Positions 26,231 to 59,130 of a stretch of 64,000 nucleotides of DNA are shown one piece after another (the stretch's first letter is position 1; each line of letters begins with the position of its first letter). A program made the translations under genes and the position numbers. The DNA comes from Macrocystis pyrifera. Lineage: Eukaryota; Sar; Phaeophyceae; Laminariales; Laminariaceae. The notes below the pieces were generated by a model that saw only the letters and a list, made by a program, of their open reading frames with translations, was not told where the DNA came from and ran no database searches. The stretch lies in contig JASSKH010000015.1 in NCBI GenBank assembly GCA_031763025.1, positions 13,074,774-13,138,773 on the forward strand. Reading direction: 5' to 3'.

Positions 26231-26425
26231 GGTTAGGAGATAGACGCTGGCCACGAAAGACAAACAAGAAGGGGATCGCAACATAATAAAAAAAATCCAT
26301 GTAATACATGAGAAGAACGTGACGAGCACCCAAATGTTGGATGTGTCTATTGGGAGTGGGAACGGGGCTCAGTCTCGAAAGAGTTGCGTGGTCAATGGTC
26401 ATATGACTAAGACAAGCAACTATTA
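26231..26425 (+). repeat. Dispersed repeat R, copy
   Basis: Starts TTAGGAGATAGACGCTGGCCAC and matches 12310-12505 through GTGGTCAATGGTCATATGAC. Confidence 0.7.
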
Positions 26426-33400: not shown

Positions 33401-36400
33401 CCCGACCCGCGAGCTTTGAAAACCTCTTGACCCGACCCGACCTGACCCGTGAGATTTTGAACAACTCCTGACCCGACCCGACCCGGCAGATTCCGATTGA
33501 TCCTTGAGATACGGGTCATGTTGCGGGTCGGGTCACCTCAACCCGCTAAACCATTTCTCTCGACCCGCGGGTTCAACTCGCGGATCCGGCGTGTGGGTGG
33601 ACACTTAAAAAACAGCTTAATCTTCGTGTTTGCACCCCGCAGTGATACGCGGCGTGACTGTAGTGGGTCTGGATGAATGCGGATATGCGCAGATATATTT
33701 GCGAGTGTTTTAAATTTTGATTATAAAACCAAACCCGTATTATGCAGTGTTGGTACGAGAGAAGCGTTCGGATACGAAACGGGAGATTTTTCCAAGTGTC
33801 GGATGCGAAGGCCGGCTGCGCGGGATTAAGGGTCAGCAAAAAAACGTTGCGGATAATGCTGGCCCGACCCGCGAATCACCCGTTTCTCGCGGGTCATGAC
33901 CTGACCCGCCCCGTGAGATCTTTACCATCTCTTGACACGAATCGACCTGACCCGTTATTTTTTTAAAAGCTCTGACCCGACCCGACCCGTTAGATTCGAA
34001 AAACTCTTGACCCGACCCGCGAGGTTTGAAAGCCTCTTGACCCGACAAGACCCGACCCATTAGAGTTTGAACACTTCCTGACCCGTCGGGTCGGGTCATG
34101 ACCCGCGAACAGTCCTGAAAATGTGTCGTATCGCCCAAAATTACTCCTGTCCCTCTCTGTCCCCAACTAAAGTATCCTTGCATTTACTTCTTGCCTCCCA
34201 CATTCGCTTCATAAATCCTGCGCGTCCTTCACTCTGCCCCTACCGCCGTGGCGGCGGGGGCGCTGATTCCCTAGTTTTTTTTGTCTGTTGACCGTTGTGT
34301 CGACTTCAACCTTCTTGTTGTCAACCATTTGTGTTGAACAAAAACATTTGCTTTTTTCGTCCAACCGTTGTTGCGTCAACCATGTTTTCATCTATTTATT
34401 AAACCATTTTGTCACCCTTTATTTTATACTTGTATTGTAACCATTGTGTCAACTTCAGCCATTTTGTTTTTCACCATCATGTCCACCTCGACCGTTTGTT
34501 GTCAAGCATTATGCCATGTGTAACCATTGTGTCAACATTAACCGTTTGTTGATAACAATTGCGTCAGCCTCAACCAACTGTTGCTAACCATTGCGCCAAC
34601 CTCAACCATTTGTTCCTAACCATTGTAGACGCCAAGCCTTATTTTCAGCCATCTTCTTTTTTTTGTCGCCGTGGCTGATGTCACCCAGAGCAACGCGATG
34701 GTCGCGATAGCGGCGGTGGTGGCGAGCAAGACGGGGTCATCGTTCGTGTACTACACCAAGCCGGTGCCTCGATGGCTTCGGAGAAACCCTGTGGGCAACT
34801 TCGCCAGGGCGTTGGCTTTAGGAGCGGAGGTGGGGGGTCTATTGCACGTAAGAAAAACGTCTTTCAGGGGTGGTGCATTGTTTTCTGAGCTCACACAGGG
34901 AGCTCAATATCTCCCATAAACCACGACTTCGAAGAAGTTTGCTGGCACAGCCTGGCCATTTTTTTCTACGAGCTAGCCCTGAAAATCATGATGGTGTATA
35001 TATACGACGTACCAGGGTACGGCACAAGTCAAAGTGTCGTCCTGACCGGTAGTTGCTCAGTTGAGGAGGTCAAACCGGGTCAGAAAAATTTGCCTCAGAA
35101 GGCAAAAAGTGCAACCTCTAACATGTTAAAGGTAAAGAGGTGCACCAATATTTTCTGAGGTTTCTCGCCTGAGAAGCTCTATACTATCACCAAGTGTTTT
35201 TTTTTTATTGAAAAGTGCAGCCCGGCTTGACAATCCCACGGCCTATTAATTGGCAGGTGTACAAATAATACTATTTATAATTTCGCCACAAACAAAAAAA
35301 AACCCGTCTCGCGCGAGTTTGGCTCAACCCTTTCAGAACTGCGGTCCCGCTTTGGGGGACAAATTACTTTAATTGTAACTATTAATAGTTTGTCCCCCAA
35401 ACGGAACTGCAGTTTTGCCTTGAAAGGGTTAAGGAGCGCCGTCATCCAGAAAAAAAAAAAAACGCCAAAAAAATGCAACCCCTGTCGTGGCGCGTCAAAT
35501 ATGAACCCTTCAGCAAACTGCAGTCCCGTTTTGGAGACAAACCAGTCAAATTCCAAGTCGTTTGTCCCCTAAACGGGGCTGCAGTCCTAGAAGGGTTTTA
35601 GTAGTTTAGTGCGTAGTTAATAGGACCTATGGTATACATAAAAACTCATATATTTACCTATTTGTACTAACAATATTTGGTCTTATTTACTATGGTCCCC
35701 GGTAATAGTGTGTACCTGGTATATGGTAAGGCACCCAAGAGGCAGTTTTCTTAGTAAACCCATCTTGCTGTCTCGAGAAGTGTCCACGCCAGAAAATAAA
35801 TCCATATCCAAGAAATTCCGCCTCAAAAGCGGTTCTTGATGGGATGCAGCTCACCCTTCATGCGACTCGCCCAACACCTCACGGCGCTTCGCGCTTGGCG
35901 CAAGCAACGTCTGCCTGGTCGGTTGAAAACCCGACGTGCTCCGTCCCGGCATTGTAGGGATGCGAGGGTCTGGCCGTACGACTACGGCCATGCACGATAA
36001 TGAGTACCCCCCCCCCCCCCCCCCCCCCCCCCGCCCCCTCACGGTACGCGCTTTGCGTCTTTTTCTTACCGCGAGAAGACTTCTGCCATTTCTTCCCTCG
36101 TCGACTCGCTTCTACACGTGTGATCATACCAAGCCATTATAAAACCCTTCATAAAAAGAAGGATAGAACTGATTGCAACAACTACAGAGGTATTTCGCTT
36201 GTTGCTCACGCAGGCAAGGTGTTGCTGAAAATCGTTGCGTCCCGTCTAAGCAGCTACTGCGAGACCGAGCATATACTCCCTGAAGAACAGTGTGGCTTCC
36301 GCCCCGCACGGTCAACAGTCGATATGCTGTTTGTCGTGCGCCGGTTGCAGCAGCTCGGGCGGCAGAAGAAAGTCCCCCTGTACATGTGCTTTATCGACTT

Positions 36401-39400
36401 GCAGAAAGCGTACGACTCTGTCGACCGAGAACTGTTGTGGGAGGTACTCACACGCCTTGGTGTACCAACCAAGATGCTCACAATCATTCGCAATTTTCAC
36501 GAAGGCATGCGGGCTCGCGTGCGTGCGGATGACGGTGAACACTCGGACTGGTTCAATGTAACCCAGGGACTGCGGCAAGGCTGCGTACTATCGCCGTTAC
36601 TGTTCAACGTGTTCTTCGCCGCTGCGATACACATCGTGCTGGTACGCCTCAGCAAAGACGAATGCATCGTAAGGGATTTGGTTCATCTCGAAGAGGACAG
36701 GGTTGTCGGAAAAGAGGAACCGTTGGCATGCGTGCAAAGGGCTGTGTGGGGCATGTTGTATGCAGACGACGCAGGAATAGTCTCGAAGTCGGCGGAAGGC
36801 CTTGCGAGAATGATGACAGTCATCGTGACTGTCTTCGAAGCAGTAGGTCTCACGGTATCCGAGAAGAAGACAGAGACGATGCTCCTACGAACACCGGATC
36901 AGACGTTTACCACCTCACCGCTCGCGATCGAAGCTGCAGGCCAAAAGTATAAACAGACGACCCAGTTTTTGTACCTAGGAGGCATTATCCACGAGAACGC
37001 TGACCTCTCCTTCGAAATCGAGCGACGAATCCGTCTGATGCGGGCATGCCTCAAACGGTATGGTCCGGAACTGTACGATAGGACGAACGCACCGCTTAGT
37101 CTGAAAGTCCGGATGCTGAAGGCCGAGGTGATTGAGACCTTGCTGTACGGTTGCGTGACGTGGGCCCTCAATGCGGACCACTTCGCCAAGCTTCGATCAG
37201 CCCACCACGAAGTCCTTCTGCGAGTCATTGGTTTCCAGCGCCGACTACGCACCGACCACACCACCCTCTCGTATGCGAAGGCGCTCAGGATAACACGATG
37301 CGAAAGTATCGAAACGACCATCCGTAAACGGCGACTCTTCTTTGCGGGGGCTGTGGTGCGGCAACACGAGGGGCGATTGCCCAGTCGGTTGATGTTCGGG
37401 ACGATCGCTGGTGGGGGGAGCCCGAAACCAGGCGGGCAGCCTAAGACTTGGCCTAGGGCAATTGCTGAGGACCTTAGAGTGTTCAAAGCCTCAGAGGGAT
37501 CAACGGAAGACTCCCCCTTAGTCTTTGGAGTTGGGACCGCACTGTGGCCCACTGCAGCAAAACAGACGGGAAAGTGGTACCGGGGAATCCTCGAAGCAGC
37601 TGAACAGTTCATGGGCAGGTGGCACGAGGCTGAGGCAAAGCTGAGTAGACAGCGCCGTGCATCCGCTGCAGGTAGTGTTAGAGGGAATGGGGGGAGGGGT
37701 AACAGCAGGAGGGGTAGAGGGAACACCGTACAAGTGTATAGGGGCAGGGGGGGGAACAGCAGGAGTAGAAGGGAAACCGCGGTAGAAGAGAGTAGCAGAG
37801 AGACCGCAGATAGGGTAGCAAGGTACCAGGCCGACTAATAGGTTGGACGTTTCTTTGCTACTCGTACCGCCAACTGCTGCGGCCGTTCGGTATGCATTTT
37901 GATTTTTTTCCCTTCTTATCCTTATGAAAGAAGTACTACATAGTGGGTGGGTGACGAGCGTATTTTGGCCCACTCACTATTGCTCTTTTTACTTAGTTAA
38001 GTGTTCACCGGGATGCATAGTCCCCTTTTTCCTTCTCGTATCTTTCCCCTTGCACGTCCCTTTTGGCTCATGCTTGGGGTAAGTATGTATGTGTCTGAGC
38101 TTTGGCTTCCCATTTTTATTTATTTATTTGGGATTCTTCTCCTTTTCTTTTTCTTTTTCTTGTTCTTTTTCGGTTTGTTTTTTTTCGTTGCTTCTCTTTC
38201 TTTATGGTGTATATTGGTTGCTGGCGTATGTATGTATGTTGTGTCGGCCGCACCTAGTGCGAAGGCATGGTATTACGTAGGCTATTAATGCATTACGGTG
38301 TGTTATCTCTGTGTCGTAGTCTGTGACCACAGAGCTCGTATCTTTCTAGGGTGAAGAATCAGCACGGACACTGGGCTTGCTGGATGTCGACGAGTAGAAG
38401 AACGGTTTAATGTGAAGAACACGCACACATTATTTACGGGGGTCATGTATGATATAGTAACCAGAACCCACGATGGGCCCGAAAGCCATGTATCCCCCTA
38501 CTGTATGTTTACACACCACTTAGGGTTATTATTACAACAGTGGTCCCTCTATAGTGCCGGTTGAATAGTGCCTATAGTGCCGGTTGCTCGCTATAGTGCC
38601 TGTGGAATCGCCTGGCAGATATGGGGTTCACCATGTGGCAGTGTGCGGAGTGAATAGTGCCTGCTGCCGCTGTAGTATCCCCGAATGTTTACACACCACA
38701 TATGGTTCTTATTGTAGTGCCTATAGTGCCGGTTGAATAGTGCCGGTTGACCGCTATAATAGTGCCTGTGAAATCGCTTGGCATAGATGGGATTAACTAT
38801 TAATAGTGTGGTAGTGTGCGGCGTCATTAGTGCCGGTTGAATAGTGCCGGTTGCCCGCTATAATAGTGCCGCTGGAATCGCTTGGCAGAGATGGGATTAA
38901 CTATTAATATTACGGGGGACCGGACCATAGTAAATAGGACCAAATATTGTTAGTAAAAATGTTTAAATATATAGATTTTTTTCTGTACCGTAGGTCCTAT
39001 TTACTATGGTCATCCGTAAATAGTGTAGCAGTGTGCGGAGTGAATAGTGCCGGTTGCCGCTATAAATAGTGCCGGTGCGGTATCGTTGGCTGGTACATAT
39101 CGACACTAGCTATAGAGGGACCGGCGCTACTGTACTATGTTACCCAGGAATACTCGTATCGGGAGAGAGAGAGCGCAGCAGCGCAAGTTCTCGTTGTGGC
39201 TCACGTGTGCTGGTTGCTTCTAGTGGTAGAGGAACCGCTGGCTAGCTCGCACAAGCGGCGGCTCCGTGTGTTCGACCAGTCAGCCGGGACCATCCCGTGC
39301 TGTAACCGCTTGGTATGTATTCCCACTCACGCGGTCGACCAAACAATGACAGGTTGCTGCTATCGAAAGTGAAACTCTCACGCCAAAAAAATATGAAACA

Positions 39401-39685
39401 AACGCCCAATTTTCTCTGCAACGACATGCAACAGATTTAGTCTCGGAAGATTCCTGATATCTAGCGATCTTCTCCTGTCTTCCACAATCCGGTGACGGAG
39501 GAGGCTAAAACAGGTTGGGACGCGACCAATATCCCCGCCTTTTTTTCCCTGTTTTCCCGTCCGTGATACTCGTACGCCTCCCAAGTAATACAAATACGTC
39601 GCCAATTCCTAAATTCTACGTAATTGTTCACCACGCCAGTTCACCGGTCGGGCCAACCTCGCGGGTCAGGTCGGCTCGGGTCGGG

Positions 39686-39717
<32 letters not shown>

Positions 39718-42700
39718 GCTGCTGCTGCTGCTGTTGTTGCTGTTCTTCACATTCCGTGGTCGCAGGGCAGGCTCCAATAACGAGGTCCTATTACAATCTG
39801 TGAGCCCGGATCTTTAGGTTGGTAGGCAGTTGAGGTATTTTTTCTTCCTGTTGGGATCAAGGTACGGGCGAAAACCCTAACCCTAACCCTAACCCTAGCC
39901 CCAAACTGCAGCCAAAACGGGCCAAAACGGGCCAAAACGGACCATAAACGCGGCTGCGCCGCGTTTGCATCGAACCAGGAAAATTCTCAGTCGCGGACGA
40001 CGCCTTCGAAGTGCAGACCGCGCTACGCAATTTTTGAATAAAAAACGCGCCTAAAGATCCGGGCTCACAGATTGTAAAACCTGCTGCCAATAACTCTGGA
40101 GTGGAAGAATATTATACCTCGGGGAAAAAAATAAAAAAAGCAAGAAAAAATAATACACATGATAACTGAAGCACATCTATACACCTCAGACAAAATAAAA
40201 AGTGAGGTCCGCGCACGTACGTATCAGGTACATGCGGTACGCTGTACAAGTCGCCGCAGAAACCGAGAGGACTGCATAGTATCCACAAGAAATAGACGGA
40301 GTGAAAAAACAACTCGACGTCGAGAAATCGAAATCAAAATCGAAATCGAAATCGAAAAAAAAAAAAAAATCAAAAAGGGAACAGAGAGAAAAAAATATTT
40401 CAAGCAAGACAGCAAGAAAGCAAGAAAGGAAACACAAGACAATGTGCAGATTTTCGCAGATTGCAGGCTCGCAAGCTACGGGAGGGGTGTAGAACAGAAG
40501 TAAGAACCAAAAACAAACATACTTACTCCGCTACCAAAACCACCAGGGAAGCAAAAAAGAACCCAATAGACAGAAAACAAAAAGGAAGACGACGAAGCAA
40601 AGCGATAAGGAAAAGCAGATAGCCAAAAGCAAAAAGGAAGATACAGAGACACAAGCAGGGGCAAACGGGAAAAAAGGACAAAGGGAGGAAAAGAAGACGA
40701 AAAAAAGAGACAAAAAGGGACAAAAAAGGAACAAACAGGGGCGGGGGGGACAGATAAGACGAAAGGCAGGCACTGATGCATGCAGACACGCAAAGTTGCC
40801 CGGGTGGCCCCACGCTAGTTACCTGGGTCCCAAAGAAGGGAGCGCATCATGACGATGATGGCCACACCCAGGCGTCAGTCTGTTGGGCAAGAGTAGCTTG
40901 ACCCGATCCGCGAGAGTTTGAAAACCTCCCGACCCAACCCAACCCGACCCGACCCGACTCGATTCGTGATATTTTGAAGATCTCTTGACCAAACCCGCGG
41001 GTCGGGTCATGACCCATGAAGAGTGCTGAAAAGGAAGGGCAAAGATAATGAGTAGGATGGAAAAAAAAAATAAGGAAAAAGTACCACAGCTTTTCTGGCC
41101 AGAAGGCGGCTGAGGAAAAAAAAAAACTGCTACCACTCTGTGCCCAACCATATCAACCAATTTTATTCAATTTTGGTTTGATACAAAAACCGTTCTTGAG
41201 TTCAAGGAGAGATTGGTACGAGCTCGAACGTAAAAGCGATGAACAAGAAGAATGAGAGCGTTCGTACAGCAGTGGGATTGCTGCATTTTTTTTTCCACCC
41301 GCGCGATAGAAAGGAAGGCGGTAAGTACCGAGGGGGAGGGAGGGGGGGGGGTGGGTGTACTCATTATCATGCATGGCCGTATAGCCGTATTAGCATGGAG
41401 AGGGGAAGGGTGAGGGGGGCGACGACACCTGTGACCTGTGACCACGGCTTGTCCGGAAGGTCGTCGAGGCCACTGAAACCTCTCACGAGTTGAGCTGAAA
41501 AGCAAAAAGGGGACGAGAGCCGAGTAGAAATAACGGTTTGAGAGTGAAAAAAAAACGCGCACTCAACTGTATGAATACATTATTGGCTACTCCATTTAAT
41601 TGGTTGATAATTGCCTTCTTCATGCTTGATGTGCGCGCAGATCATGGAAGTACACCCGGAGGACTACAAGAGGTACTTCGGAGGCGTTGACGGGCCGGGG
41701 CCGACGTATTCCGAGGTGGTTCCTCGGGAAGCACTTTTCCTTCCGCAGGGGGGAGCTGACGCTGGGGCCGAAGAGGTGCGACGCGAATGCCTTCAGCGAG
41801 CAATGCCTTGTAGGGGTGGTGGCTAATCGTATTGTGAGCTCTTCACACGAAGCTCAGTATGTCACCCGTGAAACATGACTTTTTCGAAGAAGACGTCTGC
41901 TCCCGCAACCCGCGCTATTGTAGTGCTCTAAAACAACTATTACGGGGGACCATAGTAAACAAGACAAAAAAAAAGATATTTTTAGTAAAAGTAGGTAAAT
42001 ATATAGGTTTTTGTGTGTACCGTAGGTCCTATTTACTATGGACCCTCGTAATACAAGATATACTTGAAGTAGTAAAAGTATTCATACTTACCGGTAGTTG
42101 ATCACGTGTCCCGAAATATTAGGTTCATTTGCATAGCAACATTCATTCTAAACGGTGTTATATTCGGGGACAGGGTGGTATGGTCAAGGTTCGGGGGTGC
42201 TCATGATTTTTCGTTGTTTCTGCTGGGTTTTTTGTCGTGTCTTGTGGCGTGCGTACATAGGGGGTGTCCATTCTGGCGGAAGAGATCATCAGCTACTGGG
42301 ACGCCAATGGACCGCCGGGCAAGGTGTGTGTGGACCTACTGAGGTTCGCACCAAGGTAGTGTTGCTGCTGTTGCTGTTGCTGTTGCTACTGCTGCCGATA
42401 TTGCGACTGTTACTGATGCTGTTGCTCTGTTTCTACTGATAATGCTGCTGCTGCTGCTGCTGCTGCTGCTTTCTCTCGCCGCCGAAAGCGCGCAGGCAGC
42501 CCTTGGTCCTCACACCTGTAACGAAGAACTTTCGTCATCCGCGTTTCATGCGCGCGTTGATGGTTATCTCTCGATCGATCTCCATTGGACTACAGTAGCT
42601 ATGCCCATTCGAACTTGGTCCAGCATACATAGGGGTTGGAAGGTAGTAAGTCAACGCCCGCCTACTTTTGAAGCTGACTATTTCTCGACCGGTCAGCCCG

Positions 42701-45700
42701 CTGGGGAACCTAACCCTCGAAACCTTTAAAAGCGAGGATATTTGGTCCACAGATTGCTGCTGCTGCTATTGCCGCTGCTAGTAATGTTATCGCCGGTGCT
42801 GCTGGAATTGATCTACTCTACTGCCACTGCTGCTGCTACTACTACCTCTACTATTGCTGCTAATATCACTACTACTACTACTACCACTATTACGGGGGAC
42901 CATAGTAAATAGGACCTACGGTACACGCGAAAACCTATATATTTCCCTATTTTTACTACCAATATTTGGTCCTATATACTATGGTCCCCCGTAATGCTAT
43001 TACTACTAATATCACTACTACTGCCATAATTATTTGGTTCTCGGTTTTACAGTGCCACAAATCCTACCGGAGGTACCCCTCGATCGGAAGGGAAAACGCG
43101 ATTAAAAAATATTCACCTGTTGACCAACCGCGATGAATATAAGCGTTGATGAACGAACGAATACATAACTGTTTTCGCAACCGGATGTCAGGAGCTGAAG
43201 GTAATCCTTCCTTCAGGGACGGGCACGACCGCACTGTTCCTGGCGCGACATCTGTCTCCTGCGGGCATAGGCGCGTGTGCGATACCGTGCGCGGGGGATG
43301 GGGGTTACCTTCTCAGGCAAATGGCCAAGGTATTGCTCGTACATAGTGGGTCGGGGTTTCGTAAGAGATTGCGGCCGCGGTTTCCAAATAGTAGCAAAAA
43401 TTAGCCCCGAGCTTGGTGCAAGACCCGAGAAATTGATGGGTTTGCTGTATAGCTTGGTGCAAGGTCCGACAATTTTCCAGTTTTTTGTTCTGAATTCCGT
43501 CTAGCACTATCACACCCAGGGTGATAACATAGCACACCCCCTCGGACGAACTTCCAAGCCGATTTTCTAGACACGATCAGTAGAGAGGGTGTAAACGCCG
43601 CCGAGCGACGCGTATCGTCTACGGAAAGATCTCAACGCGACATCCCCCCCCGAAGCCACACCGGTTTCGTTGTGCTGTGCGACTTGTGGCCCTTCTTGAG
43701 GAAAATCATCCCAGGGGGATGTCTTGTCTTTTCACAGGGGTGATAGTGTTATACGGTATGATATCATGTACCTGCTGAGGCAAATGACCAAGGTGTTGGT
43801 CGAGGTTGGGCAGAGTTTCCGCAATATTTGATGTCATGGTCGAGATTTTCGAAAGGTAGCCAAGCTTTAGCACAAGACCCGAAAAGAGAGTTTGGGGGTC
43901 GGGAAACGGGGTGAAGGCCAAGTGGTCAAGGTGTTGACGAACTCTGCGCACGGAAACGAAATGACTCGGGTCTGCTACGCGGACTCTATTGTAAAGCCCT
44001 CATGGAGGGGGGCATCATCCGATAGCTCGTTGCCATGCGGCTGAGTATCGCACATGTTACCACGCCTTGAACTGACCACCGATTCCCACAGTTGATGATC
44101 TAGATCTTTCAGGGCAGGTAGATAGATAGATAGATAGATACATTCCTGATCTGCATGATCTGTATGATCTGTATGGTCTGTATGGTCTGCATGATCTGTA
44201 CATGTATGGTCTCAATGATCTGTATGATCTGTGGGATCTGTATGATCTGTATGATCTAGCTCATGTTGCCGGGTGGGACCCGTATATCTGCATGATCTAG
44301 GCCATGTTTCCTGGGTTGGACCTGTACTGTACAGATAGATAGATCCTGCACAACCTCTCGCGACGGCAGGTGAGGCAATAGATGATTTAGATCAAGGTTT
44401 GTCCGAGGTGAGGAACTAGATGATCTACTGTAGATCATGATCTGTCCGAGAATCGCCTCCACACCACAAGCGCCTGTGCCTAACCTACCCAACTGCTAAC
44501 TCTTTTTTTTTTTGTTGTTTGTTTCTACAGTAGCACGTCACTGTCTTGCGTGTTTTGTTTATTGTTTTTGGTACGTAACCGTTTATAACATTTTTGTCCC
44601 ATGCCTCATCCATGTCTTCGGTAGACAGGTGTCGTGAAGTTCTTCGGGGCCCTCGTTTTATTTTTCGTTTTTGTGCAAGACGCGTAGCATGTGTAACATC
44701 TTGCATTGTATTGATCACGCTTGTTGCGCGGTGCACTGCTGCCGCTATTTCACGTGTGTGTAAAAAGGTCGATCGTGCCTCCGGGGGTGCCAGAATTTTC
44801 CCGGAAATTTTGGAGGGGAGACAGAAGGCGGCTTTCGGAGTTCCGAAAAGAGAGATACTCGAGGTGACCAGGGAGAGAAAAAAAACTGGAAGAGTGCATA
44901 GCGTCCCCCCAAGAAAGTAAAGTAGGAACGGTAGGTGCAGTAGGTGCGGTGGAGGCGTTTACGTCTGGGCGCAGCTTCGACAAGATGGTTGGTACGTAGC
45001 CCACTCGAATAATACGTAATACTAGGTAGGCACTTGTTTTGACATGTGTCTGGAGGCGTTCTACGATAGAGGTTTACCCTAAATTTTCTGAGGTTCGTCA
45101 CTTGACCTTAAGGAGCTCAATACCTCACCCGAAAACTGACTTCAGCAAAAATCAAATTGCATCCTGGTGAATAATCCCATGGCCCAAGTGTACTAAAACG
45201 TTATTTTTCGAAACCAGATTGGCATTCCGGTGATTTGGGGTTAAGGAACCCCGTCATTCAGAAAAAAAAATAGCGAAAATCTGCCACCTCTACCGTAGTA
45301 CGCATGTCTGTGTTTCTACTGTACTTCACACCTCGGGTAGATCATAGATGTTTAACCATTTGGACTGCAGTCCCGTTTTGGGGACAACCACTCTGATTTT
45401 AACTATTACGGGGAACCATAGTAAACAGGACCAAATATTGTTGTAAAAATACCTAAATATATAGGTTTTTATGTAGGCCATAGGTCCTGTTAACTATAGA
45501 CCCCCGTAATAGTTTGTCCCAAAACGGGACTGCAGTTCTGAAAGGATTAAGGGCAGATAGATCATAATATTCCTGATCTGTACGATCTACAGATCATGCT
45601 CCCGGGTTGGAGCCGAAGTTCCTGCATTACCTATAGGACATGTGTCCTGGGTTGGATCTGTACTATACCGATCCTGCACAGCATCTCGTAACAGCTGGTC

Positions 45701-48700
45701 AGGATCTATAGATGATCTATCTGAAGATGATCTATCTGAAGATGATCTATCTGAAGATCTATCTGAAGATGATCCATCTGAAGATCACAGCAGATAGATC
45801 ATAATATACCTGATCTGTACGATCTGCAGATCATGCTGCCGGGTTGGAGCCGTATTTCCTGCATGATCTGTCGGACATGTTTCCTGGGTTGGATCTGTAC
45901 TAAACCGATCCTGCACAGCATCTCGTAACGGCAGGTTAGGATGTGAAGATGATCTATCTGAAGATGATATATGTTTAAGAGCAGATAGATCATAATATAC
46001 CTGATCTGTACGATCTGCAGATCATGCTGCCGGGTTGGAGCCGTATTTCCTGCATGATCTATAGGACATGTTTCCTCGGTTGGATTTGTACTATACAGAT
46101 CCTGCACAGCATCTCGTAGCGGCAGGTTAGGAGCTAGATTATATATCTGTGGATGATCTATCTGAAGATGATCTGTCCGATGTGTGCAGTTGTGTTTACG
46201 ACTTGGCCCGGCTCCGACATAATGGTTTGTAGTTCGCACTATTTCACGTGTCGAACACATCAGATAGATCAACTACAGATTGATCAGATAGATCATCCAG
46301 GTCCTATCCTGCCGTTTTGAGCTTAAGGCAGCATGAGCTAGATCAAATAGATCATACAGATCAGGAATCTACATGCCGTGAAATATCTAGACCATGACGT
46401 GTTCGAAGTGTGCTGCACCAATAACCAATCACCAACCAACAACCACCCTCTCGTTGTTGGCGGGGGGCAGACAGGCTCGGCCTCTTCCCTCAGTCAATCA
46501 ACCAAGCAACCAAGCAAACATCATATGTATCCAGACCATTCAATCTATTATGAGGTCAATTTTCTCCCCTGACGAGCTCAAACCCGCAGCGCAATCATCA
46601 CTCACCAACCACCAATTACCATTGGCCAATCTACCTCTCCTTTTTCAGGTTTGGCGGGAGCTGGACGGGCTCGGTCTCTTCGTAGATCTCCTGTATGCAG
46701 CCCCAGCTTGGGAGGTAAGTAGAACCAAATACTTCCCTTTGGTCTTCGCGTCCGTAGGGCATGCCAGTACTGTACTGCTGTAGCAGTACTACGGGGGACC
46801 ATTGTAAATAGGACCTACGGTACACACTAAAACCTATATATTTACCTATTTTTGCTAACAATATTTGGTCCTATTTTACGATGGTACCCCGTAATAGTGT
46901 TTCTTTGTTTTAGTGTCCCCCGTATCCCATCTATTGTGGCGGAGGTGATACTGACCTCCTCTACGCCTGCCCGGCTTGGGAGGTGTGCAGAACCGATTCA
47001 CCTGTGGTATTCGCATCCTTGGGGTCAAAGACGACGAGGACATCCGTCTTTTTACGTTTTTAGACCTGTCAAGACCTCTTGTGGCCTTCAAATACTAGGT
47101 GTCGGTGTAGGGGGGGGCGGGCAGTCAAGGGGTCAAACCGTTGTCTCCTAGCATCTGAAGATACTAGTTTTAGTGTAGGGGACGGTCAGTCAAGCGGTCA
47201 AACTGTGGCCTCCCAGCGTGTTTGCCTGGCGGCGGTGCTTCTTGGATATTGTATCCCCCTGCCCCCTCTTTTTTTTAGAGGCGTTAACGATCTCCTGTGC
47301 GTTGCTCAGCTTGGGAGGTAAGCCTAACCGATTTTCCCCTTTGATTATCGCATCCCGAGAGTCTATTACGGGGGACCATAGTAAAGAGGACCAAATATTG
47401 TTATTAAAAATAGGTAAATATATAGGTTTTTGTGTATACCGTAGGTAGGTCCTATTTACTATGATCCCCCATAATAGGAGACCGATCTTTCTTGGCGCGC
47501 CAAGGCCTAATTTTGCCCAACATACTACAGGTGATTTTAGCGTTGGGGGTGGTCAGTCATGGAGTCAAACCGTGGTCTCCTAGCGTCTTAACATACTAGT
47601 TTTAATGTAGGGGCGGTCAGTCGAGGGGTCTGCGGCCTCCCGGTATCTGACTATACCAGTTTTAGTGTACGGGGCGGTCAGTCAAGGGGTCAAACCGGCC
47701 TTGTCTGAACGAAAATTTACCAACCACGGTAACATAAACAACAGCACGGCCCGCGCGTTGACTGTTTTCCTGGTGTATCACCGGTGCTTGCCTCCTATCA
47801 ATAGGTGATCATGGACAAGTGGGGCACGGCGGAATGTCCGCTGGCACAATCTCCAGGGATATCCGACGACGCCGAGGTACAGTACATAACTTTTATTTTT
47901 TTACGAGGGGCAATAGTATTACATCGCAATACATAGTAATACATAGCAATACATATTAATAGTAGTACATAACAATACAGAGTATTACGTAGTAATACAG
48001 CGTATTACATACCGTGGTACGTATTGCGGGGGGACCATAGTAAATAGGACCTACGGTACACACAAAAACCTATATATTTACCTATTTTTACTAACAATAT
48101 TTGGTCCTATTTACTATGGTCCCCCGTAATAGTTCAAACCCACGATGGCCCCAAAAACCAGTATCCCCCTATGCTCGCACACTTTATTTGGTTATCATTA
48201 GTGTTGGATATTGTACCATAGATAACTTCGATACGATATCGATATCGATAACGATAAATTTCGGTTTCGGCGAAAAAAATTATCGGCGAGCCGCAAAGCG
48301 AGCCCGCGAGCACAGCGAAGCTAGCGCGCGAAGGCGCTGTCAGCTCGCTGTGCGAGCCCCAACGCCCCCCCCCCCCCGGCTGGCGAGGGGGCCCCGCTGG
48401 AGGCGCCGCCGGAGGCAAAAAAAAATGGAGCATTTTTGCTTCATTTCCCATCAAAATGTACCATAAAATGGGCCACTACACCCCCGACCGTGTTTAGTTT
48501 TTTACTGGCGTGTGCTGTGTGCGCGTGCTGCCGAGGGGGGCTTTGTGTCTGGGGGTCCGTGCGGACCATGTACATACCTTTGGGGGCTCCGTGGGTGGTT
48601 TTGTCGATTTATCGTATCGTATCGAAAAGCCTAAATCCTTACGATACTCGATGCGATACGATATTTCGATACGATATATCGGAGCTTTCGATACGATATC

Positions 48701-51106
48701 CAACATTTATTGTCGTTACTTGTTCCCCGGTAAAAGTACGGAGGCATGTTTTCTCCTCCAACATCGATACGACTCGCATCTGAGGACAGGCAGAGGTGCT
48801 GGGTGTTGGGGGGGCAGGGAGGGGGGGGGGGGGTATACTCATGGCATGCGTGGCCATAGTCGTATGGGCGGGCGGGGGGGCAGGTGGAAGTAGCAAGGTA
48901 GCTTGTTTCGTGTATTGTGCCACGTTCGTTCGTGTCGTTTTGAAAGAAATCGTAGCCGTTCGCGGACTTTTAAGGTGGCTCCTGCTGCGAAACGCCTCCA
49001 TTTATGGTGGAACCCCCAAGAAAGAGGATGATGGTGATCGATCCCCTACAACTACCTTGTACCATGTAACAAGTTAACGCCTTCCCATGCTTCTTTGGGT
49101 TGCCGTTTGCGAGTGCCGTTCGCATATTTACCCATGAGTAGCCCATGGGTACACCATGGGTACCCCTCGTGGGTAGTCGTCCATGGATAGCCCATGCGTA
49201 GTCCATGGGTAGCACATGGGTGGCCATAGGCCGCCCATGAGGTTGCCCTGGTAGTTCATGGGTAGCCAGTGGGTAGGTAGCCCGTGGGTAACCCGTGGGT
49301 AGCCCGTGGTTTACGGCGAACGGTCGATGTCCGCACCTTCTGTTCTTTTGCCGTGATACCCATCATAACCTGTTAGTTGGTGGGTGGTTCAGGGAGAAGC
49401 AAGTTGCTAATTCACACGACCGCCTATATAAAAGGCATTAAGGTGTGCCTTGCGTTTCAGCTGGGTGAAGCCGAAGATCCAGTACTACACTATAGGGCAT
49501 GCCTTGCTTTTCAGCTATTACGGGGGTACATAGTTAATAGGACCTATGGTATTCGTAAAAACCTGTATATTTACCTATTTTTACTAACAATATTTGATCC
49601 TAATTACTATGGTCCCCCGTAATAGGTAAAGCCAGAGATCCGACTTTAAACGCCCAGAGCACGCGCCACGGAGCGCGGCCGAGACCCACACTTGCGCCGT
49701 GGTGTACACGCGAGCCCCCTGCGTGCCCCGCAGCCTAAATCGCGAGACAATACCCGCGACCGGAGGAGAAATGCAAAAGTTTTCCGGAAAAACAACAATT
49801 TTTGGTACATGATAATATAAAACAGGGCATGCCTTACTTTTCAGCTGGATGAAGCCAGATATCCTTCACGATAGTATAAGGCATACCTTAGTTTTCAGCT
49901 GGATGATGCCGGAGATTCACGCCATCTGTCGGAAGCTCTCTGGGTGATTTTGTTTCCATGCATTTGCTCCGGCGCACAGTCGCAGGTTCTTGGCGACAGT
50001 TACAAACTTGCACACGTCCGGACGAAACCACGATCTATCTACGACGTAGTCTACTGTAGATGCGCACTTACCTGCTGTTATGTTTTTTTTTTATGTTGTG
50101 CGGATCTGTGCAGTCAATGCAGATCTAATCCAATGAACATGCTCTAGAGGTCACGCAATTTGTAGCGGCCCACATCCTGCAACATGATCTAGATCATACA
50201 GATCATCCAGATCAGGAATTGATCTGTCCCGAAATATCTGGATCATGAAGCGGGAATCGACGATCTGCAGATAATCTGTCCGAGGTGTGCAAGCTTGCAA
50301 AGCTGAATATCAATTACTCGATAAGTCGAACGAACTCACAACACAAGAAAAGTGCGGTATAGTTTCCGTTGCTCTTCACGGGTCAGGACCCGTCCCGTAG
50401 CTCGGGTCTGGTCAGCAAGTTTTTTTAAATATCATGGGTCGGGTCGGGTCGGGTCAGGAGGCCTTCTAGCTCTTCACGGGTCGGATCGGGTCACCCTTAC
50501 CCGACCGGACTCGACCTGACCGGCGAGGTTTTTACCCGACCCGTGAACAGCCCTAGAATTCCCAGTACGAGTGCCATCATGCAAGCGCGTGTGTCGCACA
50601 TATCCCTCCCTAAAAATTGACCTCAATCTCAATTTAATTAATTCGTACTGGAAATAGAGTTAATTATTCATTTTCCGTCTTCGGGCACACGAAATTGCAC
50701 TTCGGACAACATCCCCCCTACCCCAGCGGCCAGTAACGTGGGCTTTTTCTTCAACCATCGCGTGGCCGATGCTGTACGACAATCTAGTCATATTTTTCAA
50801 AACTTTTTCCTCCCAAAGGTCCCAATGGGCTTGATTTCGCTACTGCACTGCCTGTACGGGGACACCTCTTGGTCTCTAATTCCAACTAGTCTGTCCCCAA
50901 AACAGGAGTGCGGCCCTAGACGTTTTTTTAAAGGAAACCCGCAACAACTCGTCATGACAACCGTTCCTAATCTACAGCAGTTCGTTTTTTGCTCCCGTTC
51001 GCAGCCACAGCTGATGTACGTGCACTGCGGAGGACTGGAAGGCGTTTCTTCGCAGCTCACTCGCTACAAGCACCAAGGGCTGGTGGAGAACCGGCAGCTG
51101 CAGTAG
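27375..51106 (+). CDS. PLP enzyme of the ACC deaminase / D-cysteine desulfhydrase family (10 exons)
   Basis: Ten exons join in frame (27375-27488, 31475-31588, 34689-34829, 41641-41775, 42261-42323, 43192-43329, 44768-44863, 46649-46714, 47805-47876, 51005-51106) to 346 residues, about the family's usual size. Members of this fold-type II family use pyridoxal phosphate to deaminate ACC or to split D-cysteine; the sequence alone does not tell which. Seen: VLVKRDD before the lysine motif SGNKARKL (candidate Schiff-base Lys50), SHGGAQSNAM (71-80), the glycine-rich phosphate loop PSGTGTT (196-202) and a C-terminal YVHCGGLEG (318-326). No clear targeting peptide is present. All introns are phase 0; coding is about 4% of the span. 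The start could lie upstream if 27363 is an acceptor. Confidence 0.88.
27517..27982. repeat. 29-bp minisatellite at the start of intron 1
   Basis: About 16 units of 29 bp, consensus in two parts GATGGGAATATAATACCCG and TTTGGACTCT. A few units are shortened (16-25 bp). There are no spacers, so it is not a CRISPR. Confidence 0.95.
27985..28640. repeat. GATC-rich palindromic repeat, copy 5
   Basis: Contains both orientations: ATGATCTGTACGATCTAGCTCA, ACAGATCCTGCACAGCATCTC, GCAGATCTTACCCAGGAAAG and GATCATTAAGTGGGAATGG-type blocks. Lies in intron 1. Confidence 0.75.
28761..28872 (-). mobile_element. MITE family A, copy 4
   Basis: Slightly longer (an inserted CTG near the left end), reverse orientation, intron 1. 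Confidence 0.85.
28954..29060 (+). mobile_element. MITE family A, copy 5
   Basis: Forward orientation, flanking TA on both sides, 80 bp after copy 4. Confidence 0.9.
29160..29660. repeat. C-rich minisatellite, about 56-bp unit
   Basis: Some eight units with CCCCTACCCCCTCCCACAAA, then ATCGCCTGTTTTCC and TTCCCACAACACCCC. Open frames on both strands follow from the 56-bp period and are not called. Confidence 0.85.
29660..30035. other. Intron 1 sequence with no recognised element
   Basis: Contains ACCCTAACCCCAAC-like phrases near 29714-29740 and 29885-29900, without a true telomere array. Confidence 0.3.
30040..30530 (+). repeat. C-tract dispersed repeat, long copy 2
   Basis: Near-identical direct copy of 14035-14545, from GACACTGTAAAAAATGCCGC to the TCTCTCCTATCGAGTACACC end. 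Lies in intron 1. Confidence 0.9.
30674..30758. mobile_element. TTAA-type palindromic MITE (family B), copy 1
   Basis: TAGGACTGCAGACCCGTTTG and its inverted partner around AAACGGGACTGCGG, with GGGGACAAACCAG inside. Confidence 0.65.
31090..31380. mobile_element. Foldback element with long inverted arms
   Basis: Two nested inverted matches: 31090-31135 (CCGGACCGGTCTTTTTTCGA...AAGGTCAGAATG) with 31331-31380, and 31138-31170 (AAAATAAAAC...GGAGCGCTG) with 31240-31266. A run of about 20 C sits in the loop. It ends about 95 bp before exon 2. Confidence 0.8.
31475..31588 (+). CDS. PLP-enzyme exon 2 (cofactor lysine)
   Basis: Codons 39-76. Acceptor gatgcag; reads [16 protein letters not shown], so Lys50 is the expected Schiff-base lysine, and ends ASHGGAQ. 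Donor CAG then GTGGGT. Flanks exon 1 so as to read [17 protein letters not shown], the family order. Confidence 0.92.
31672..31772 (+). mobile_element. MITE family A, copy 6 (3' end damaged)
   Basis: Left end and centre intact. The right end stops at TTTACTATG and runs into a C-rich SINE-tail-like sequence (CACGGTAAGTGCCTTG). Confidence 0.8.
33286..34117. mobile_element. hAT-like MITE with GACCCG arrays
   Basis: Ends CAGGGCTGTTCGCGGGTCAG and TGACCCGCGAACAGTCCTG are inverted. Both arms are GACCC(GACCCG)n arrays with TTGAAAACCTCTTGACCCG units; about 260 bp of non-repeat sequence lies between. The CAGGGCTGTTCGCGGGT end is typical of hAT-type MITEs. Lies in intron 2. Confidence 0.7.
34280..34640. 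repeat. TCAACC/AACCATT minisatellite
   Basis: Irregular units of roughly 35 bp with GTCAACCATTGTGTCAAC and CTCAACCATTTGTTG, ending 50 bp before exon 3. Confidence 0.75.
34689..34829 (+). CDS. PLP-enzyme exon 3
   Basis: Codons 77-123: [20 protein letters not shown], then [20 protein letters not shown] and ALALGAE. Acceptor cacccag, donor GAG then GTGGGG. Completes the GGAQ-SNAM motif across the junction. Confidence 0.92.
34860..34970 (+). repeat. Intron element I, copy after exon 3
   Basis: GTTTTCTGAGCTCACACAGG, GAGCTCAATATCTCCC and GACTTCGAAGAAGTTTGC. Related copies follow exon 4 (41805-41905) and exon 7 (45075-45145). Confidence 0.6.
35324..35432. mobile_element. TTAA-type MITE (family B), copy 2
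   Basis: TCAACCCTTTCAGAACTGCG...TTGAAAGGGTTAA, inverted ends with TTAA-like targets, centre CTATTAATAG-like. Confidence 0.75.
35502..35600. mobile_element. TTAA-type MITE (family B), copy 3
   Basis: GAACCCTTCAGCAAACTGCA...CTGCAGTCCTAGAAGGGTT, with GGAGACAAACCAGTC and its inverted partner. Confidence 0.7.
35610..35706 (+). mobile_element. MITE family A, copy 7 (5' end missing)
   Basis: Starts within the element at GTAGTTAATAGGACC and keeps the right end. Confidence 0.8.
35722..36033 (+). repeat. C-tract dispersed repeat, copy
   Basis: AAGGCACCCAAGAGGCAGTT through CATGCACGATAATGAGTA, then a run of about 26 C. Directly precedes a SINE-tail-like piece (36038-36120) and the LINE. Confidence 0.85.
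36137..37838 (+). CDS. LINE reverse transcriptase ORF, 5'-truncated
   Basis: Same blocks as copy 1, from [12 protein letters not shown] onward: [44 protein letters not shown] at 36759-36770, and the end [12 protein letters not shown] with TAA at 37836-37838. Only a handful of substitutions separate it from copy 1 (for example Ile to Val after RQKK, Phe to Leu after VLVR, Thr to Ala in the TWTLNAD motif). Upstream codons in this frame (from 36000) come from the poly-C repeat and are not part of the protein. No endonuclease domain. Confidence 0.9.
36137..38430 (+). mobile_element. LINE copy 2, 5'-truncated, in intron 3 (sense)
   Basis: Near-identical to the minus-strand copy at 23930-26230, truncated within a few bases of the same point, with 3' end TTTAATGTGAAGAACACGCACACAT. 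It accounts for a third of the 6.8-kb intron 3. Confidence 0.9.
38538..39132. mobile_element. pogo/Tigger-like MITE, copy 2, with nested MITE A
   Basis: Ends CAGTGGTCCCTCTATAGTGC and CTATAGAGGGACCGGCGCTACTG. The interior is repeats of ATAGTGCCGGTTG and a CTTGGCAGAGATGGGATTAA block in several copies. A family A MITE is inserted at 38909-39019. Confidence 0.7.
38909..39019 (-). mobile_element. MITE family A, copy 8
   Basis: Reverse orientation, inside the pogo-like element, next to a CTATTAATATT site. Confidence 0.85.
39686..39742. repeat. (GTT)n-(GCT)n microsatellite
   Basis: About 11 GTT units, then GCT units; preceded by a GGTCGGCTCGGGTCGGG piece of the hAT-like family. Confidence 0.9.
39791..40077. 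mobile_element. MITE with 28-bp perfect TIRs and internal CCCTAA repeats
   Basis: 39791-39818 and 40050-40077 are perfect inverted repeats beginning TTACAATCTGTGAGCCCGGA. Inside are four telomere-type AACCCT units (39873-39898), three AAAACGGGCC units and a small GC hairpin (ACGCGGCTGCGCCGCGT). Confidence 0.85.
40080..40890. other. A-rich intron 3 sequence
   Basis: Contains an (AAATCG)n array near 40325-40355 and a purine-rich plus strand. No gene. Confidence 0.4.
40893..41032. mobile_element. hAT-like GACCCG element, right-end fragment
   Basis: GTTTGAAAACCTCCCGACCC arrays ending GGGTCATGACCCATGAAGAG, comparable to the right end of 33286-34117. Confidence 0.6.
41337..41515. repeat. C-tract repeat end (reverse) and SINE 3' fragment
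   Basis: 41337-41385: GGGGGG, then TGTACTCATTATCATGCATG, the reverse of the C-tract family end. 41413-41515: GACACCTGTGACCACGGC-like body of the SINE (compare 61385-61460). Confidence 0.6.
41641..41775 (+). CDS. PLP-enzyme exon 4
   Basis: Codons 124-168: [20 protein letters not shown] ... [17 protein letters not shown]. Acceptor gcgcgcag, donor GAG then GTGCGA. Confidence 0.92.
41805..41905 (+). repeat. Intron element I, copy after exon 4
   Basis: GAGCTCTTCACACGAAGCTC, AGTATGTCACCCGTGAAACA and TTCGAAGAAG; aligns with 34860-34970. Confidence 0.6.
41939..42052 (-). mobile_element. MITE family A, copy 9
   Basis: Reverse orientation with some substitutions (AACAAGACAAAAAAAAAG at the inner left arm). 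Confidence 0.85.
42261..42323 (+). CDS. PLP-enzyme exon 5
   Basis: Codons 169-189, [21 protein letters not shown]. Acceptor gtacatag, donor AAG then GTGTGT. At 63 bp it is the smallest exon. Confidence 0.9.
42360..42475. repeat. (TGC)n-rich trinucleotide tract
   Basis: GCTGTT/GCTGCT triplets directly after exon 5. A second, looser triplet field (CTACTA) runs from 42760 to 43030. Confidence 0.85.
42889..42995 (+). mobile_element. MITE family A, copy 10
   Basis: Forward orientation, inserted in the CTACTA triplet field of intron 5. Confidence 0.9.
43192..43329 (+). CDS. PLP-enzyme exon 6 (phosphate loop)
   Basis: Codons 190-235: [20 protein letters not shown] ... [12 protein letters not shown]. 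The Gly/Thr loop binds the cofactor phosphate in the family. Acceptor atgtcag, donor AAG then GTATTG. Confidence 0.92.
43540..43660. repeat. Dispersed repeat (AAGCCGATTTTC family), copy 3
   Basis: AAGCCGATTTTCTAGACACG, GTGTAAACGCCGCCGAGCGA and GAAAGATCTCAACGCGACAT; the best-kept copy. Confidence 0.45.
43738..43895 (+). pseudogene. Extra copy of the 3' end of exon 6 with its donor and intron start
   Basis: TACCTGCTGAGGCAAATGAC then CAAG and GTGTTGG aligns with the end of exon 6, reading YLLRQMTK against YLLRQMAK. The match goes on into the intron (CAAGACCCGA, AAGCTT/GAGCTT). Upstream of TACCTG the similarity fades and a ttcacag acceptor at 43737 would enter in a different phase, so splicing it in would shift the frame. 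Probably a decayed duplicate. Confidence 0.75.
44085..44455 (-). repeat. GATC-rich palindromic repeat, copy 6
   Basis: AGATAGATAGATACATTCCTGATCTG, then TGATCTGTATGATC repeats, CTCATGTTGCCGGGTGGGAC, GATCCTGCACAACCTCTCGC and GTAGATCATGATCTGTCCGA blocks. Intron 6. Confidence 0.8.
44768..44863 (+). CDS. PLP-enzyme exon 7
   Basis: Codons 236-267: [20 protein letters not shown] then [12 protein letters not shown]. The chosen acceptor gtaaaaag keeps phase 0 but is weak; a stronger-looking gccag at 44793 would break the frame. Donor GAG then GTGACC. Confidence 0.82.
45075..45145 (+). repeat. Intron element I, copy after exon 7
   Basis: AATTTTCTGAGGTTCGTCAC, AGGAGCTCAATACCTCACCC and GACTTCAGCAA. Confidence 0.55.
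45352..45550. mobile_element. TTAA-type MITE (family B), copy 4, split by MITE A
   Basis: TTAACCATTTGGACTGCAGT...GACTGCAGTTCTGAAAGGATTAA with exact TTAA at both ends. A family A MITE lies at 45405-45510 inside it. Confidence 0.85.
45405..45510 (-). mobile_element. MITE family A, copy 11 (nested)
   Basis: Full-length, reverse orientation, flanked by TA inside the AACTATTAATAGT-like centre of family B. Confidence 0.9.
45548..46395 (-). repeat. GATC-rich palindromic repeat, tandem copies 7
   Basis: Three successive units (about 45550-45785, 45786-45970, 45971-46190), each with CATAATATNCCTGATCTGTACGATC, GATCATGCTGCCGGGTTGGAGCC-type and CCTGCACAGCATCTCGTA blocks, plus a reversed end (46255-46395). 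Intron 7. Confidence 0.85.
46649..46714 (+). CDS. PLP-enzyme exon 8
   Basis: Codons 268-289: [22 protein letters not shown]. Acceptor cctttttcag, donor GAG then GTAAGT, the best splice sites of the gene. Confidence 0.92.
46788..46895 (+). mobile_element. MITE family A, copy 12
   Basis: Forward orientation, intron 8, between exon 8 and its first extra copy. Confidence 0.9.
46914..46982 (+). pseudogene. Extra exon-8-like copy 2 (open, splice sites kept)
   Basis: Preceded by ttgttttag and followed by GAG then GTGTGCAG. It reads [23 protein letters not shown], 23 codons in phase 0, against exon 8's [12 protein letters not shown]. The similarity continues into the intron (AGAACCGATTC against AGAACCAAATAC; GGTATTCGCATCCTTGGGG against GGTCTTCGCGTCCGTAGGG). 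The first half of the exon, including VWREL, is lost. It could be a decayed duplicate or, since it is open and symmetrical, an alternative exon. Confidence 0.75.
47070..47215. repeat. About 65-bp tandem repeat, left block
   Basis: GGGCGGGCAGTCAAGGGGTC, AAACCGTTGTCTCCTAGC and ATCTGAAGATACTAGTTTTA; the same unit returns at 47515-47700 on the other side of exon copy 3. Confidence 0.75.
47279..47317 (+). pseudogene. Extra exon-8-like copy 3 (frameshifted)
   Basis: GTTAACGATCTCCTGTGCGT then TGCTCAGCTTGGGAG aligns with the end of exon 8 but lacks one base, which breaks the frame. It keeps a T-rich acceptor (tttttttag) and the donor GAG then GTAAGC, and the intron similarity continues (CTAACCGATTTTCCC, TTATCGCATCCC). 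Confidence 0.75.
47365..47475 (-). mobile_element. MITE family A, copy 13
   Basis: Reverse orientation with an extra GTAG; TA on both sides. Confidence 0.85.
47515..47700. repeat. About 65-bp tandem repeat, right block
   Basis: Three units of GGGGCGGTCAGTC, GGGTCAAACCG, CTCCTAGCGTCT and ACTAGTTTTAGTGTA. Confidence 0.8.
47805..47876 (+). CDS. PLP-enzyme exon 9
   Basis: Codons 290-313: [24 protein letters not shown]. Acceptor atcaatag, donor GAG then GTACAG. Confidence 0.88.
48023..48130 (+). mobile_element. MITE family A, copy 14
   Basis: Forward orientation, intact. The preceding 47920-48020 is an AATACATAGT-type repeat. Confidence 0.9.
48199..48712. mobile_element. Terminal-inverted element rich in CGATACGATATCGATA
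   Basis: Left end AGTGTTGGATATTGTACC and right end CGATACGATATCCAACATT are inverted. Both arms carry CGATACGATAT repeats; the centre has GC-rich hairpins (GCCCGCGAGCACAGCGAAGC). hAT-like by its end, class not certain. Confidence 0.6.
48822..48870 (-). repeat. C-tract repeat end (reverse)
   Basis: G runs, then TATACTCATGGCATGCGTGG and CATAGTCGTATGGG. Confidence 0.6.
49125..49310. repeat. 10-11-bp minisatellite (CCCATGGGTAG)
   Basis: About 17 variant units of TAGCCCATGGG type in intron 9. Confidence 0.9.
49440..49920 (+). repeat. Repeated CCTTACTTTTCAG-CTGGATGAAGCC units
   Basis: Four units at about 49445, 49498, 49828 and 49880: GGCATGCCTTACTTTTCAGC, then TGGATGAAGCCGGAGATCC. Each looks like a 3' splice site with a few exon-like codons. 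One is split by MITE A, and a GC-rich repeat (49640-49810, copy 2 of 13745-13920) lies between units. Confidence 0.75.
49517..49623 (+). mobile_element. MITE family A, copy 15
   Basis: Forward orientation, inserted in one of the TTTTCAGCT units; TA on both sides. Confidence 0.9.
50040..50295 (+). repeat. GATC-rich palindromic repeat, copy 8
   Basis: GCGGATCTGTGCAGTCAATGCAGATC, CATGATCTAGATCATACAGA and GATAATCTGTCCGAGGTGTG. Intron 9. Confidence 0.75.
50370..50555. mobile_element. hAT-like GACCCG MITE, short copy
   Basis: CTCTTCACGGGTCAGGACCC to GACCCGTGAACAGCCC, with GGTCGGGTCGGGTC arrays. Confidence 0.65.
51005..51106 (+). CDS. PLP-enzyme exon 10 (3' end)
   Basis: Codons 314-346 and TAG at 51104: [20 protein letters not shown] ... 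LVENRQLQ. Acceptor cgttcgcag; a second in-phase AG at 51010 would drop two residues. The YVHCGGLEG block is typical of the end of this family. Confidence 0.92.
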   Translation, partial: PQLMYVHCGGLEGVSSQLTRYKHQGLVENRQLQ

Positions 51107-57539: not shown

Positions 57540-59130
57540 CACCAGTTCGTGGTACGAGTAGTATAGGCATGTTCTACTTCTTAGTCTGCCCGGTACCTTG
57601 CTACCCTATCCGCCATCTCCTTCCTACTTTCGTCCACTGCAGTTTCCCTTCTACTCCTCTTCCCCCCCCTCTCCGCATTCCCTTGGTCGGGTTTTCTGCT
57701 ACTCCTCTTGTTGCCCCTCCTCCCCCCATTCCCTTGGACACCACCCACGGCGGATGCGCGCCGCTGCGTGCTCAGCTCAGCCTCAGCCTCGTGCCACCTC
57801 ACCATGAACCGTGCGGCTGCTTCAAGGATCCCCCGGTACCACTCCCCCGCCTTTTTTGCAGCAGTGGGCCACAGTGCGATCTCAACTCCAAACACCAAGG
57901 GAGCAAGTTCCGTTGACCCTTCGGTGGCTCGGAACTCCCTAAGGTCTTCGACTATGCATCTATGCCAAGTCTTAACCTGTCCGCCAGGTCTCGGGTTCTC
58001 CCCACCAGCAATCGTCCCGAACATCACCCGACTGGGTAATCGATCCTTGCTTTGCCGTGCCACCCCCCCCCCCCCGCGAAGAAGAGACGCCGTTTGCGGA
58101 TGGTCGTTTCGATGCTCTCGCAACGTGTCATCTTGAGGGCCTTCGCGTACGAGAGGGTGGCATGGTCAGTACGAAGTAGGCGCTGGAAGCCAATGACTCG
58201 CAAGAGGACTTGGTGGTGAGCCGTTCGAAGCTTGGCAAAGTGTTCCGCTCTGAGGGTCCACGTCACACACCCGTACAGCAGGGTCTCAATCACCTCGGCC
58301 TTCAGCATTCGGACTTTCAGGCTAAGGGGGGCGGTCGTCCTATCATACAGCTCCGGGCCGAACCGTTTGAGGCATGCTCGCATGAGACGGATAAGTCGGT
58401 CGATTTCGAGCGAGAGGTCAGCGTTTTCGTGGATAATGCCGCCTAGGTACAAGAACTGGGCCGTCTGCTTATACCTCTGTCCTGCTGCTTCGATAACGAG
58501 CGGTGGTGCGAGGGTTTTCTGGTCTGGCGTGTGTAGAAGCATAGTCTCTGTCTTCTTTTCCGACACCGTAAGGCCTGCTGCTTCGAAGACAGTCACGATG
58601 ACTGTCATCATTTTCGCGAGCCCTTCAGCCGACTTCGAGACAATCCCTGCGTCATCGGCGTACAACATGCCCCATACAGCCCTTCGCACGCACGCCAACG
58701 GCTCCTGCTCCTCCGTTCCGACTACTCCGGCATCACTGAGTTGGACCAAATCCCGTTACGATGGCTTCGTCATGGCTAGAGCGTACTAGTACGACGTGCA
58801 ACGCAGCAGCGAAAAATACGTTGAACAGTAACGGTGACAGCACATAGCCTTGCCGCAGCCCCTGCGTGACATCAGACCATTCCGAGTGCTCGCCGTCATC
58901 CGTACGCACGCGAGCCCGCATGCCATCGTGGAAATTACGGATAATTCTCAGCATCTTGGTTGGTACGCCAAAACGTGTGAGTACTTCCCATAACAGCTCT
59001 CGGTCGACAGAGTCGTACGCTTTCTGCAGATCGATGAAGCACAAGTACAGGGGGATTTTCCTCTGTCTTCCAAGCTCTTGCAACCGGCGCACGACGAACA
59101 ACATATCAATCGTTGATCGTGCGGGTACTG
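57540..59130 (-). pseudogene. LINE copy 3, RT pseudogene
   Basis: Minus-strand RT related to the two LINE copies but more diverged. It is truncated just before [18 protein letters not shown] and breaks frame near 58745 and at a C run near 58065. Blocks [30 protein letters not shown] and YADD are visible; the end reads MADRVARYRAD at the TAG/TAA near 57581. An older insertion of the same family. Confidence 0.85.

Follow-up and report, generated by a model that had tools for sequence, protein, structure and literature searches.

Partial copies of exon 8 flank the true exon in the introns of a putative kelp PLP-enzyme gene. They are probably decaying products of local duplication, and only the whole copy (copy 1) is likely used in mRNA; we put the probability of this reading at about 80%. 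In the window, which is the whole 64-kb stretch of DNA analyzed, we found one whole exon 8, one copy of its 5' half upstream, and two copies of its 3' half downstream. Local duplications with breakpoints inside exon 8 would have scattered these pieces into the flanking introns. The downstream products would be the 3' half with the intron head (copies 2 and 3), and the upstream product would be the intron tail with the 5' half (copy 0). The whole copy at 46649-46714 alone would be spliced into mRNA, while the pieces would rarely act as exons and would decay like intron. We infer that they persist because each is without one exon half and one original splice site. MITEs and a dispersed 65-nt repeat would have inserted into the same introns, and two inverted MITEs could enclose copies 2 and 3 in a loop.

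The decay reading is favored by the partial copies on each side of the exon, the similar divergence of exon and intron parts, the stop in copy 3, and a parallel case at exon 6. Several features count against it: copy 2 is the sole pseudo-exon passing our filter, its private changes are silent, its putative donor is good, and strong acceptor-like sites precede three of the exon copies.

The modelled PLP-enzyme gene

The gene body was modelled on the forward strand at 31475-51106 as eight exons with open frames and AG/GT borders. In the order found, the exons lie at 31475-31588, 34689-34829, 41641-41775, 43192-43329, 44768-44863, 46649-46714, 47805-47876, and 51005-51106. The borders were our choice from the open frames, not transcript-based. 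The exon numbers are those of the initial annotation and assume two upstream exons, which our modelling did not find. A further exon between the third and fourth modelled exons may be absent from the model. With these borders, which are model choices, 7 of 7 modelled introns are in phase 0, and thus skipping or adding any modelled exon leaves the frame intact.

The joined model protein of 287 aa matched PDB 9jqf, a 1-aminocyclopropane-1-carboxylate deaminase/D-cysteine desulfhydrase, with an E-value of 2.1e-19. The match covers residues 8-278 of 287, GNKARK included, so the similarity to a solved enzyme of this kind extends over most of the length. The DLLY of exon 8 aligned with the DLLY of 9jqf. 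We take the tyrosine of DLLY to be located at the active site, and the lysine of GNKARK presumably binds PLP. From its sequence, the host gene looks like an ACC-deaminase/D-cysteine-desulfhydrase-like gene. A Pfam search with the model protein returned no family at E 1. The matches to NCBIfam TIGR01275 (19 bits vs cut-off 289.4, E 0.00069) and TIGR01274 (16.9 bits vs cut-off 392, E 0.0028) were below the cut-offs, the model protein being incomplete. Pattern searches of genome contigs for relatives gave 52 and 418 matches with no confirmed relative among them, and a plasmid search for relatives gave no match.

LINE-like reverse-transcriptase reading frames were recognized by eye at 24509-26329 (minus strand), 36000-37838 (plus strand), and 57581-58749 (minus strand). 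The first two are near-identical along most of their length, and the third is broken up.

Partial copies of exon 8 on both sides of the exon

Copy 1 (46649-46714, plus strand) is the only whole copy, with 66 nt encoding 22 residues, as defined by its open frame and its alignment to 9jqf. The initial annotation had exon 8 present three times in a row. Its 3' end does recur twice, but its 5' half is at chance level before copies 2 and 3. Copy 2 (46953-47024, plus strand) comprises the 3'-terminal 30 nt of the exon (46953-46982) and ~42 nt of intron head. In copy 3 (about 47286-47361, plus strand), the exon end (47289-47317) is one base short and is again followed by the intron head. The start of the following intron thus recurs together with the exon end at both places, as had been claimed.

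As the query we took 46685-46760, which spans the final 30 nt of the exon and ~45 nt of intron head; it scored 75.9 at copy 2 and 71.8 at copy 3. The initial annotation had made the duplication depend on an alignment above chance, and these scores were never reached in 2000 dinucleotide shuffles per target (maxima 38.2 and 47.8). When the query was lengthened to 46649-46760, none of 1000 tile-strand comparisons in the rest of the window scored above 48.9. Taken by itself, the whole exon 8 gave only a marginal match when compared with the full intron 8 (9 of 500 shuffles did as well); the signal sits in the 3' half of the exon and the intron head. The first 36 nt of exon 8 scored at chance level upstream of both copies: 452 of 2000 shuffles did as well at copy 2 and 1850 of 2000 at copy 3. 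The 5' part of the exon first drawn for copy 2 (46914-46952, plus strand) has no similarity to exon 8.

Copy 0 (46416-46482, plus strand), which is absent from the initial annotation, joins the tail of intron 7 to the 5' half of exon 8. It was identified by alignment and shuffles, and its alignment is gapped at the position of the acceptor AG of copy 1. The exon 5' half scored 41.0 there (0 of 2000 shuffles, maximum 33.3) and the intron-7 tail 38.0 (0 of 2000, maximum 35.8). The exon 3' half is absent after copy 0, with 282 of 2000 shuffles as good. Copies 0, 2, and 3 therefore each carry exon 8 homology beyond chance in their own part, and in none of them are both exon borders duplicated, as in a whole-exon tandem duplication. 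Just upstream of copy 0, at 45789-46132, intron 7 holds a tandem repeat with a unit of 191 bp (1.8 copies, 95% matches).

The stretches upstream of copies 2 and 3 are weakly similar to each other (score 34.2, 11 of 2000 shuffles). The non-repeat evidence for a unit shared by copies 2 and 3 covers ~118 nt, 46901-47018 versus 47239-47355. A single segmental duplication of ~330 nt (237 of 300 positions identical, MITE omitted) was considered for these two copies and rejected, as its tail is the dispersed 65-nt repeat. Whole-genome searches with copies 1, 2, and 3 returned self-matches only; they also missed the sister copies within the window and so exclude only near-identical copies elsewhere.

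Divergence, reading frames, and splice signals of the copies

The copies differ from one another by 17-28%. Over the three copy pairs, identities were 23/30, 24/29, and 23/29 in the exon parts and 32/41, 31/43, and 27/36 in the intron heads. Pooled by hand, this gives 70/88 (79.5%) in exon parts versus 90/120 (75%) in intron parts. The two parts appear to have diverged alike, with no clear sign of coding constraint in the sequences. Between the decaying duplication and the alternative exons that the initial annotation had offered, the former is better supported by this similar divergence, by the lack of the 5' half in copies 2 and 3, and by the complementary partial copy upstream, with the amendment that the copies are partial, not whole.

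The initial description of copy 2 as open and in phase 0, with usable splice sites at both ends, is mechanically correct. Drawn as an exon (46914-46982), it has 69 nt versus the 66 nt of exon 8 and is the only copy that is open and phase-preserving with splice signals. The acceptor tracts of copies 2 and 3 contain 11 and 13 pyrimidines in 13 positions, respectively, and both beat 7 of the 8 modelled exons. Their donors score 6/9 and 7/9, where the real donors score 8, 6, 6, 6, 6, 8, and 5; the copy 2 donor equals or beats 5 of these 7. Under a strict filter, 18,768 nt of introns contained one open phase-0 pseudo-exon, which is copy 2, although the filter was set after copy 2 had been seen and its pyrimidine rule is passed by only 2 of 8 real acceptors. 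The same introns contain 13 acceptor-like sites with at least 10 pyrimidines in 13 positions. Three of these 13, at 46913, 47278, and 43737, lie 39, 10, and 31 nt before exon copies, versus ~0.125 expected within 60 nt (hand arithmetic). The acceptors of copy 2 and copy 3 fail to align, and thus they are not one inherited acceptor. An origin of the copy 2 acceptor from a MITE (70% inverted match) was rejected; the stretch aligns with the region before copy 3, though weakly when taken alone. These splice signals are the strongest evidence against regarding the copies as dead.

Copy 2 could instead be a genuine alternative exon that takes the place of exon 8 or follows it in the mRNA, so that a segment of the enzyme is changed. 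We consider this unlikely. The frame would be kept in both cases owing to the phase-0 introns, and the strong acceptor-like tract, the usable donor, and the unique standing of copy 2 under the filter would fit such a role. The coding changes also point in this direction. In the 10 codons shared, 3 of 3 changes private to copy 2 are silent (P 0.011-0.021, or 0.0024-0.006 if a fourth, ambiguous site is counted), and so are 5 of the 7 differences that separate copies 1 and 2 (P 0.012-0.024), in a test of tiny numbers that was devised after the data had been seen. However, should 20-50% of the changes have occurred in copy 1, which is under constraint, the silent excess between these two copies would be no surprise (P 0.11-0.49), and the exon parts of the copies have diverged as far as the intron parts. 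Moreover, 13 of the 23 residues of copy 2 are not homologous to exon 8. The suggestion that copy 2 just varies the DLLYAxPAWE segment does not hold, since the 39 nt at its 5' end do not match exon 8 and its use would swap 12 residues for 13 unrelated ones. The variant protein with copy 2 scored 69.0 versus 73.2 bits against the PDB relative and was worse aligned there, a small difference.

A MITE-like foldback family of ~105-115 bp with the ends CTATTACGGGGGACC matched 18 copies in the 64-kb window, for example at 46787-46898, 47363-47477, 48030-48136, 45401-45504, and 42895-42995. The member at 46787-46898 (plus strand) lies between copies 1 and 2, and the one at 47363-47477 (minus strand) lies after copy 3; they are inverted to each other and predicted to pair. 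These two are 4.9% and 3.9% away from the consensus of 15 copies, versus 17-28% between the exon copies, and so the MITEs look younger. Their predicted duplex has 97 pairs and -140.0 kcal/mol, versus -38.3 and -44.3 kcal/mol for the elements alone. In the full MFE structure, this pairing loops out copies 2 and 3. The same structure pairs the MITE at 45401 with that at 48030 (100 pairs), enclosing exons 8 and 9 too, and other inverted pairs are as stable as the 46787/47363 pair or more so.

Such folding would allow a switch in which copy 2, half of exon 8 plus intron, is a functional alternative exon controlled by competing inverted MITEs. We regard such a switch as very improbable; in it, the MITEs at 45401 (minus), 46787 (plus), 47363 (minus), and 48030 (plus) would place copies 2 and 3, or else the adjoining exons, in loops. 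We give the folding little weight because it is a prediction made without a shuffle control and the window holds 18 such MITEs. A half-exon with intron that forms an open pseudo-exon between inverted MITEs is a ready test case for the possible birth of new alternative exons.

Copy 3 has lost one base, as initially annotated (29 vs 30 nt of exon part). The exon drawn for it (47279-47317) reads RR*, an in-frame stop, and the 2 of 2 substitutions private to copy 3 are non-silent. A poison exon, whose inclusion brings a stop and lowers expression, would agree with this stop, the acceptor tract of pyrimidines only, and the donor GAG|GTAAGC. We consider one very unlikely here, since a stop is expected in any decayed copy and the pyrimidine-AG motif is no commoner on the plus strand of the gene body (17) than on the minus strand (22).

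Dispersed repeats, exon 6, and known exon duplications

Downstream of copy 2, a dispersed repeat with a period of ~65 nt occupies 47057-47225 (plus strand), with sister stretches at ~47535-47714. It often forms short tandem arrays, and a genome search that scored 40 of 425 candidates counted 135 matches, its own place among them. The exon tail was found at 0 of 8 other loci of this repeat that were fetched, the best score being 41.7 versus 75.9 between copies 1 and 2. It is scarcely credible that the exon similarity arose by chance or from a dispersed repeat resembling the exon by accident: the unit that follows copies 2 and 3 does in part belong to such a repeat, but the 8 other repeat loci fetched are without the exon tail, no shuffle reached the copy scores, and the genome searches, within their limit to near-identical copies, gave only self-matches.

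The decay reading has a parallel at exon 6. The end of this exon (43306-43329), followed by a similar intron head, recurs as a partial copy at 43769-43792 (plus strand), ~460 nt downstream of its source. The 3' end with the intron head scored 59.6 (0 of 1000 shuffles), and the 5' part was at chance level at this copy (610 of 1000 shuffles as good). The strong acceptor-like site at 43737 precedes the copy, and reading from there gives GGG TGA, a stop. We scanned both ends of the eight modelled exons against 1.5 kb on each side. The outliers were both ends of exon 8 (63.5 and 75.9) and the 3' end of exon 6 (59.6). Of 400 pieces drawn at random from the gene body after masking of MITEs and tandem repeats, 9.25% scored at least 59 within 1.5 kb and 2.25% at least 75. 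Of the 37 pieces scoring at least 59, 25 fall outside the exon 8 region (counted from the list). Without masking, a score of ~87 or more was reached by 10% of 300 pieces of the window. Local duplicates are common in this gene, and it is thus unsurprising that exon edges were caught up in them.

The case is ordinary but instructive, with partial exon copies that flank the exon and are likely tolerated since none is complete. It cautions against taking exon-like sequence in the introns of this genome as evidence of alternative splicing. Tandem exon duplications with unannotated intronic copies have been described (PMC9013439). The kelp gene is similar in that exon-like sequence is repeated in the adjoining intron and may be spliced; it differs in that only half-exons are copied, that they lie to either side of the genuine exon, and that they have strongly diverged. 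Exons 3 and Ab of U2AF1 are mutually exclusive tandem exons (PMC5224494). Copy 2 resembles them in lying beside the original exon, with much the same length and an identical phase, but its homology is limited to 30 of its 69 nt. In brown-algal ROCO genes, shuffled LRR exons, which are whole 72-bp phase-2 units, are repeated and expressed in repeat proteins (PMC11378527). The likeness is in the repeated exons of brown-algal genes and their symmetric phases, and the difference is that the kelp copies are partial and lie in an enzyme gene.
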